A stretch of 64,000 bases of DNA from an uncultured Psychroserpens sp. (GTDB lineage: Bacteria; Bacteroidota; Bacteroidia; Flavobacteriales; Flavobacteriaceae): the NCBI RefSeq assembly GCF_947492715.1, contig NZ_CANLNS010000003.1:333363-397362 (forward strand), written 5' to 3'. How positions within the stretch are numbered: the stretch's first letter is position 1; every line of letters begins with the position of its first letter. Positions 47,375 through 49,865 of the stretch are shown here, piece after piece. A model generated the notes under the pieces. It saw only the letters and a list, made by a program, of their open reading frames with translations, searched no databases and was not told where the DNA came from. The translations under genes were made by a program, and so were the position numbers.

Positions 47375-48613
47375 TTGAATTACGAGTTTTTTATAGCTAA
47401 ACGAATTATTGGTAGTAAATCGTATAAAAGTAGTGTTTCGGCGCCAATAATAAAAATTGGTATTGCTGCTATTACTATTGGCATTGTTGTAATGCTTATT
47501 GCGATTGCAACTGGTTTGGGGCTGCAGAAAAAGGTGAGAGAAAAAGTTGTAGCCTTTAATGGACATATCACTATAAATGAGTTTAATAGTAATGAGTCTA
47601 ATGAGTCTATCGTTCCTATTTCTGTTACGCAGAATTTTTATCCTAAATTTAATAACGTAGATGGTGTCAAACATATACAGGCTGTGGCAACAAAATTTGG
47701 TATTGTTAGAACTGAAACCGATTTTGAAGGCATAGTATTAAAGGGTGTTGGTGCAGATTATGACTGGACTTATATCCAAGATTTTCTTGTAGAGGGTGAG
47801 TTGCCAGTTTATGAAGGTAAACTCAGTAATGATGTAGTCATTTCGAGCTATTTGGCAAACCGTTTAGGATTTAAATTAAATGATACTTTCCAGGTTGTTT
47901 TTAAAAAGGAGAGTATCGAAGACATTCCTTTTCAACGACGTTTTAAGATAGTTGGAATTTTTAACTCAGGATTTCAAGACATCGATAAAAATTTTATGAT
48001 TGGAGACATAAGTCATATTCAACGTATGAATAAGTGGGAATCTAATGAGATTGGAAATTTTGAAGTCTACCTTAACGATTTTACTGAGCTTTCCGAGATT
48101 GAACAACAAATTAGAAACCAAACGCCTTCATTTTTAGATACACAGACCATAGAAGAAAAGTTTGACACCACTTTTGAATGGATTAAAATCTTTGACAATA
48201 ATACCTACGGCATTATAGCTATTATGATTATAGTGGCAGGAATTAATATGATTACGGCTTTGCTTGTGCTTATTTTGGAACGTACGCAAATGATTGGGAT
48301 TTTAAAGGCTTTAGGTAGTAGTAACTGGAGCATAAGGAAGATGTTTTTATACAATGCTACTTATCTCGTATGTTTAGGATTGTTTTGGGGCAACCTTATA
48401 GGTCTTGGTCTCCTCTTTGCTCAACAGAAATTTGGCGTGCTTAAATTTCCAGATCCAGAACAATATTATGTATCTATTATCCCAGTGCATATAGGATTAG
48501 ATTATATTATTTTATTAAATATAGGCACCTTTATTGCCTGTTTCTTAATGCTATTGATACCGTCAATAATTATCACAAAGATTTCGCCTGTCAAAGCGAT
48601 TCGATTTGAATAG
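47375..48613 (+). CDS. ABC transporter permease (LolC/E-FtsX-like)
   Basis: TTG start; N-terminal TM, periplasmic MacB-like domain, C-terminal 3 TM FtsX domain (TALLVLILERTQMIGILKALGSSNWSIRKMFLYNA). Confidence 0.88.
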   Translation: MNYEFFIAKRIIGSKSYKSSVSAPIIKIGIAAITIGIVVMLIAIATGLGLQKKVREKVVAFNGHITINEFNSNESNESIVPISVTQNFYPKFNNVDGVKHIQAVATKFGIVRTETDFEGIVLKGVGADYDWTYIQDFLVEGELPVYEGKLSNDVVISSYLANRLGFKLNDTFQVVFKKESIEDIPFQRRFKIVGIFNSGFQDIDKNFMIGDISHIQRMNKWESNEIGNFEVYLNDFTELSEIEQQIRNQTPSFLDTQTIEEKFDTTFEWIKIFDNNTYGIIAIMIIVAGINMITALLVLILERTQMIGILKALGSSNWSIRKMFLYNATYLVCLGLFWGNLIGLGLLFAQQKFGVLKFPDPEQYYVSIIPVHIGLDYIILLNIGTFIACFLMLLIPSIIITKISPVKAIRFE

Positions 48614-48637: not shown

Positions 48638-48760
48638 GGGCGTTCCACTTTATCACTTTTTAGAGCTAAAGTGTCAGGCTGTTCGTTATATCTTTTTATT
48701 GTTTGAATTTTCACTGCGCTCAATTCCTATAAAAAGGATGCCACTGCCATCCTTAACGCG
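48638..48760 (+). repeat. Intergenic multi-stem (cloverleaf-like) element, probable flavobacterial interspersed repeat or structured RNA
   Basis: Outer GCGTT (48640-48644)/AACGC (48755-48759); arm CACTTTA (48646-48652)/TAAAGTG (48667-48673); arm CTTTTTAT (48692-48699)/ATAAAAAG (48729-48736); arm GGATG/CATCC (48736-48740/48748-48752). Confidence 0.6.
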
Positions 48761-48884
48761 ACTAGCTTAAAACCATATGGGCTTTCGTTTCATTTTTAAT
48801 CTCATGTTATGAGAACTAAGATTTCCGAAGAAAACCTATTTAAATCTTGAGTTTTGTCTATTTTTGCATCGCAAAATAAAGACA

Positions 48885-49865
48885 ATGGACTACGCAGAAA
48901 ATATATTAGGTACAATTGGTAATACGCCATTAGTAAAATTAAATAAATTAACATCAGACTTGCCTTGTTTGGTATTGTCAAAATATGAAACATTTAACCC
49001 AGGGAACTCGGTTAAAGATCGTATGGCATTAAAAATGATTGAGGATGCCGAAGCCGATGGTCGTTTAAAACCAGGAGGAACAATTATTGAAGGGACTTCA
49101 GGAAACACAGGAATGGGTTTAGCCTTGGCAGCCATAGTAAAAGGTTATAAATGTATTTTCGTTATTAGCGATAAGCAATCTAAAGAGAAGATGGATATTC
49201 TTAGAGCTGTAGGAGCAGAGGTTGTTGTATGTCCAACAGATGTAGAGCCAGATGATCCAAGAAGTTATTATTCGGTATCAAAACGCTTAGGGGAAGAAAC
49301 ACCTAACTCTTGGTATGTGAACCAATATGATAATCCAAGCAACGCCAAAGCACATTACGAAAGTACTGGTCCAGAGATTTGGAAGCAAACCGATGGAAAA
49401 GTGACACATTTTGTTGTAGGTGTTGGAACAGGAGGAACTATTTCTGGCGTAGGAAAATATCTAAAAGAACAAAATCCAGATGTGAAAGTTTGGGGTGTTG
49501 ATACCTATGGAAGCGTGTTTAAAAAATACCATGAGACAGGTGTCTTTGATGAGAAAGAAATCTATCCTTATGTGACCGAAGGTATCGGTGAAGATATTTT
49601 ACCCGAAAATGTAGATTTTTCGATTATCAACGGGTTTACAAAAGTAACCGATAAAGATGCCGCTGTATACACTCAGCTATTAGCTAAAGAAGAAGGTATG
49701 TTCTTGGGAAATAGCGCAGGAGCAGCGATTAAAGGTTTATTGCAGTTAAAAGACGAGTTTACTAAAGACGATGTTGTTGTGGTATTATTTCATGATCATG
49801 GCAGTCGTTATGTAGGTAAAATGTTTAACAACGAGTGGATGCGTGAGATGGGATATATAGATTAG
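48885..49865 (+). CDS. PLP-dependent cysteine synthase/cystathionine beta-synthase family protein
   Basis: MDYAENILGTIGNTPLVKLNKL...NPGNSVKDRMALKMI...EGTSGNTGMGLALAA...GVGTGGTISGVGKYL; start 48885 rather than 48864. Confidence 0.93.
   Translation: MDYAENILGTIGNTPLVKLNKLTSDLPCLVLSKYETFNPGNSVKDRMALKMIEDAEADGRLKPGGTIIEGTSGNTGMGLALAAIVKGYKCIFVISDKQSKEKMDILRAVGAEVVVCPTDVEPDDPRSYYSVSKRLGEETPNSWYVNQYDNPSNAKAHYESTGPEIWKQTDGKVTHFVVGVGTGGTISGVGKYLKEQNPDVKVWGVDTYGSVFKKYHETGVFDEKEIYPYVTEGIGEDILPENVDFSIINGFTKVTDKDAAVYTQLLAKEEGMFLGNSAGAAIKGLLQLKDEFTKDDVVVVLFHDHGSRYVGKMFNNEWMREMGYID

Follow-up and report, generated by a model that had tools for sequence, protein, structure and literature searches.

ERIC/IRU, NEMIS and other bacterial MITEs are intergenic palindromic repeats of 100-150 bp that are dispersed through genomes and are non-autonomous. 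The Flavo-1 elements described here are likewise short, intergenic, dispersed and non-autonomous, but differ from ERIC/IRU and NEMIS in that no target duplication was seen and in that they carry conserved internal-loop motifs and not only terminal inverted repeats. REPIN/REP elements resemble Flavo-1 in a further way: besides being short intergenic non-autonomous repeats, they fold as one strand and have no target duplication. Unlike REPIN/REP elements, Flavo-1 has no GTAG tetranucleotide, forms a larger three-way junction and has no Y1 transposase partner. Among the REP-associated Y1 transposases (RAYTs), the Bacteroidetes subclass 2.6 is accompanied by atypical flanking structures that have copies elsewhere in the genome (PMC6006769). 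Flavo-1 itself was defined as an RNA motif, RF01705, by Weinberg et al. 2010 (PMC2864571) and has been an unexplained Rfam entry since 2010. Neither that paper nor a study of the Flavobacterium psychrophilum transcriptome (PMC9723704) gives it a function, and a literature search found no described repeat of the Flavo-1 kind in Flavobacteria.

The element analysed here is a member of this already catalogued family, and the copy itself is ordinary; the point of interest is the re-description of the family. What is new is that the catalogued version of Flavo-1 lacks one end of its fold, that its copies have spread within genomes without a mover gene of their own, and that copies of great age retain their shape over long periods near gene ends. 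Its true ends, three-way junction and folding strand, with the evidence for its dispersal, recast what was a candidate small RNA as a candidate mobile element, with a mover that can be searched for. In the reading that I favour, with a probability of roughly 60%, Flavo-1 is a miniature, non-coding, non-autonomous, structure-dependent mobile repeat of Bacteroidota whose landed copies have been kept.

The element and its family

Across the window (the whole stretch of DNA analysed, 64 kb), RF01705 was the sole Rfam match above threshold. It covers 48668-48767 on the minus strand and scores 53.3 bits in cmscan against a curated gathering score of 42, which places the copy in the family; the two have the same conserved core, strand and phylum. 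The initial annotation had allowed for an earlier description and proposed a comparison with Rfam, which is where the family was found. However, the Rfam model has 76 positions and includes neither the GGGCGTT side of the closing stem nor most of arm 1. A full-length covariance model of the whole element, R1, built from 44 short copies, places a complete element with class A ends at 48638-48759 on the minus strand (69.0 bits, E 1.6e-14). Its ends on the plus strand are GGGCGTT (48638-48644) and TTAACGC, of which AACGC occupies 48755-48759, exactly where they had been reported. No gene crosses the element, in agreement with the initial statement that no ORF explains it. It is intergenic, its GGGCGTT end lying 24 bases past the stop codon of an FtsX-like permease gene (47375-48613, plus strand), and a cysteine synthase-like gene of the CysK/CysM type follows it (48864-49865, plus strand; true start probably near 48886). 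Both genes, named from sequence alone, have orthologues in relatives.

I gathered 148 full copies by pattern from the source genome, its relatives and public Bacteroidota genomes. Their plus-strand consensus is GGGCGTTnCC-arm1-GGTC(A/G)GGCTnTCCGCTATATCT-arm2-GGATGCCGCTnCnATCC(C/T)TAACGC, bordered by TTT before and AA after; its ends and core are constant, and both arms differ between copies in their length as well as their sequence. This combination of constant ends with variable arms had been anticipated, and the flavobacterial consensus given in the initial annotation proved right almost letter for letter. Its suggestion of an interspersed repeat also holds, as the element recurs in multiple copies in the source genome, where R1 finds 23 copies and Rfam 13-14. 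Existing annotations therefore undercount Flavo-1 and misplace its boundaries. Members of the genus carry 2-25 copies by R1. The family is found in Flavobacteriales, Bacteroidales, Lentimicrobiaceae, Cytophagaceae and others, mainly within Bacteroidetes, and is intergenic, with five elements of the set overlapping an ORF of at least 100 aa. Plasmid and phage records searched for the element gave no match. The core pattern is present in four IMG/VR contigs (L239-L242).

RF01705 also matches elements with a second set of ends, class B (TAGGAGC...GGGCTA), and one accession therefore holds two end classes. The class B elements have the Flavo-1 core in common with class A and are abundant in one genome (G039). 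Several of them (L252, L262, L268 and other G039/G052 loci; L034-L039) contain alternative internal-loop modules, namely CAATC/GGATTTCC, CATACTCC/GGGGTAACC and CACTCGC/GAGCTC, and one class B copy is shared in position by several species, ahead of a gene starting MAKEVKS.

Fold and folding strand

The element had been read as a cloverleaf with three hairpins inside its closing ends, and two of these hairpins are located as claimed. Arm 1 (48646-48673, minus strand) is the variable hairpin CACTTTA/TAAAGTG, seen in the sequence with 48646-48652 opposite 48667-48673; across the family it varies freely and mostly keeps its pairing. Arm 2 (48690-48739, minus strand) is a hairpin both long and variable (ATCTTTTTAT ... 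ATAAAAAGGAT); it has a single bulged base at the foot and includes the reported pairing of CTTTTTAT with ATAAAAAG (48692-48699 with 48729-48736). The letters of the third hairpin, GGATG/CATCC (48736-48740 with 48748-48752), are present, but its CATCC side pairs instead with GGCTG at 48677-48681: across the family this partner column changes along with it, whereas the supposed GGAT partner does not. Because the CATCC side belongs to other, covarying pairs, the third hairpin is not supported, and the fold is therefore a three-way junction, not a cloverleaf. It consists of a closing stem, the short arm 1 and the long arm 2 with conserved internal loops. The closing stem is formed by GCGTT at 48640-48644 and AACGC at 48755-48759 (minus strand, letters as on plus), which show double changes across the family. 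The conserved core, delimited by family consensus and covariation, comprises 48674-48692 (TCAGGCTGTTCGTTATATC on plus) and 48736-48759 (GGATGCCACTGCCATCCTTAACGC on plus), both on the minus strand, and its pairs are 48676-48753, 48677-48752, 48678-48751, 48680-48749, 48681-48748, 48685-48744 and 48686-48743. The tRNA-like stretches noted earlier do not amount to a tRNA, ARAGORN finding no tRNA gene.

This structure was proposed from covarying columns and tested on the 44-sequence alignment against 500 shuffles. Pair cells are paired in 96.3% of cases, and ten pairs have changes on both sides, amounting to 69 such cells against 20.6 in the shuffles, none of which reached as high. When the partner is slid by 1-3 columns, pairing is only 34-55%. 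The best column pair across 133 distinct cores reads TA in 67, AT in 45 and GC in 20, with one exception. RNAalifold, unaided, predicts a nearly identical structure. The expectation of a structured element with covarying arms is thus strongly borne out.

The folding strand is the minus strand. Non-Watson-Crick cells read on this strand are G-U in 21 cases and A-C in eight (p 0.024). Of 133 cores, 124 have G.A at one mismatch and eight have the swapped A.G, and two further mismatches are G.A or A.G in 129/133 and 133/133 cores. Of the 148 elements, 135 have their lower folding energy on the minus strand under DNA parameters, and 111 under RNA parameters. The evidence on strand does not tell RNA from single-stranded DNA.

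Dispersal within genomes

Within single genomes there are copies that are 93-98% identical over their full length, arms included, with 40-nt flanks that are only 20-45% identical. Such pairs occur in Lentimicrobiaceae SIG107, in Aquimarina 821-3Z and in the source genome (C1:578 kb and C1:581 kb), and similar pairs exist between related isolates or MAGs, e.g. in Algibacter. Matching gives way to mismatch at the constant ends of the element. A test for direct repeats at the edges of the 148 elements found none, with z no higher than 2.6 whatever the repeat length. The near-identical copies with unrelated flanks in single genomes, lacking target duplication, imply that the element has dispersed, and the mobility of Flavo-1 is supported by them indirectly. 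The mobile non-autonomous repeat of the initial annotation is upheld to this extent; the target duplication CTAGCTAA/CTAGCTTAA suggested with it is unsupported as a property of the family. Of the marks of a classical MITE, dispersed near-identical copies with unrelated flanks are indeed found here, but target duplication is lacking across the 148 elements.

Precise empty sites were sought for two source-genome sites in eight relatives and for one Lentimicrobiaceae region in 40 relatives, which gave orthologous, decayed or lost elements and no clean empty site. A check for replication-strand bias, from GC skew at 20 points per genome in two closed genomes, was noisy. One Flavo-1 copy (L278, G004) is interrupted, a few bases in from its left end, by an inserted palindrome, CCTGCCTGCCGCAGGCAGG, in one of two close species, and the arms of other copies hold other dispersed repeats, e.g. 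GTCATTGCGAGG.

In the source genome, eight copies lie where orphan Rhs/YD-repeat C-terminal modules join, and some flank is common to the majority of these copies; part of that copying is therefore segmental duplication. They are found, with small genes downstream, at C1:578-585 kb, 837-838 kb and 876-885 kb of the source genome (G000; L025, L026 and L027), and about 55 nt of 3' flank is common to most of them. The element may act as a recombination boundary for the exchange of Rhs modules. Two otherwise nearly identical copies (L026 5169-5307 and L027 6012-6147) have the inner part of arm 2 inverted between them, which is a signature of hairpin template switching or inversion.

That groups of copies adjoin module-like Rhs fragments also invites comparison with the recombination sites of integrons, as do the AAC/GTT at the base of an imperfect single-strand hairpin and the variable terminal arms. 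The polarity is reversed, however. An attC site carries AAC 5' (RYYYAAC) and GTT 3' (GTTRRRY), and Flavo-1 the opposite, GTT 5' and AAC 3', whichever strand is read. No match over cut-off to the integron integrase (TIGR02249) was found in 59 genomes, and most copies are scattered and not in cassette arrays. I therefore rejected attC, and an attC-like recombination site is the least credible of the explanations considered, with hardly any chance of being correct.

Age and constraint at the permease-cysteine synthase site

The neighbourhood of the permease and cysteine synthase genes is conserved in relatives, and the element, judged by eye, is present at 20 of 29 loci with both genes, absent at eight and unclear at one. 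The empty loci in the genus lack more than the element alone. Gapped alignment of 13 orthologues gives 87% identity for the core against 60% for the adjacent flank, and at several pairs both partners have changed in place; one orthologue (L093), for example, has a closing stem of GAGTT/AACTC, a double change relative to GCGTT/AACGC. The four copies that Rfam detects in two species, which are about 95% alike at the locus, are all orthologues, and one of them has undergone a double compensatory change. The window copy is thus old and, on the favoured reading, an insertion passed on by vertical descent.

Template-switch correction at quasi-palindromes could yield some double changes without selection. 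The constancy of unpaired loop bases across orders is not explicable in this way. The compensated changes in place show the sites to be under constraint, something for which an element that is purely parasitic would have no need.

Position beside genes and transcription

Neighbouring genes were counted with a simple ORF caller. The gene next to the GGGCGTT end is directed towards the element in 76 of 122 cases (p 0.008), at a median stop codon distance of 22 nt, and a stop lies within 12 nt in 31/76 cases at the GGGCGTT end against 5/54 at the other end (p 6e-5). Both p-values are optimistic, as the set includes copies that are orthologues of one another. This proximity to stop codons can reflect either preferred insertion there or a function of the element at the 3' ends of genes.

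A function there is the substance of the main competing explanation, in which RNA transcribed from the minus strand folds and works either in cis close to gene 3' ends, for instance by blocking or processing antisense transcripts running into the gene, or as a small RNA. The minus folding strand, the preservation of structure in place by compensated changes and the closeness of the GGGCGTT end to stop codons all speak for a functional RNA. Against it, copy number ranges from 0 to tens between related species. The -7 promoter motif is not enriched upstream of the minus strand (26 vs 27 of 138), and promoter and terminator patterns that might drive or end a minus-strand transcript of the window copy do not exceed chance. 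In F. psychrophilum, Flavo-1 matches are indistinctly sense or antisense to transcribed regions and many lie outside them (PMC9723704). On the chance-level promoter and terminator tests I rejected a free small RNA that would have such signals of its own, and the Rfam type 'sRNA' appears to find no support in the present analysis. On balance a functional RNA is possible but unlikely.

Search for a mover

The mobile-repeat reading calls for an enzyme, and one candidate considered was a RAYT. A REPIN/REP-type element mobilised in this way would fit GCGTTA followed by a hairpin at both ends, the intergenic position, the single-strand fold, the missing target duplication and the existence in Bacteroidetes of subclass 2.6 with its atypical flanking structures (PMC6006769). 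However, the Y1 transposase (PF01797) is absent from the source genome and from most copy-rich members of the genus, as well as from four of eight genomes chosen for many or near-identical copies, some of which are MAGs and may be incomplete. Conversely, none of 20 Y1 loci has Flavo-1 above threshold, and the full-length model gave a single weak match (16.6 bits, E 0.11) and no convincing full-length one in 22 Y1 loci. A RAYT partnership was rejected on these grounds, and I regard it as very unlikely.

The genes beside the element show no recurring family other than orthologous neighbours and ordinary host genes. An autonomous version with a gene between the two halves was also rejected, as no examined locus has the halves far apart.

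If Flavo-1 is a structure-dependent mobile repeat, an enzyme acting in trans would recognise the folded minus-strand shape together with the constant internal loops, and would copy or move the element to new intergenic sites, often T-rich and just past stop codons. Movement would pass through a single-stranded DNA or RNA intermediate, and copies would be retained after landing because near gene ends their structure is of use or at any rate under constraint. A bolder and rather doubtful extension is that Flavo-1 and class B form a phylum-wide superfamily of single-strand-folding mobile elements with a mover that is neither RAYT nor integron, landed copies having been adopted as 3'-end barriers whose minus-strand fold would stop or process antisense transcription into the gene.

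The Y1 genes of 180-200 aa that I examined are flanked by other hairpins. At six loci (L310, L313, L314, L316, L077 and L088) the transposases resemble TnpA-REP subclass 2.6, and the hairpins flanking them are inverted and belong to other families.
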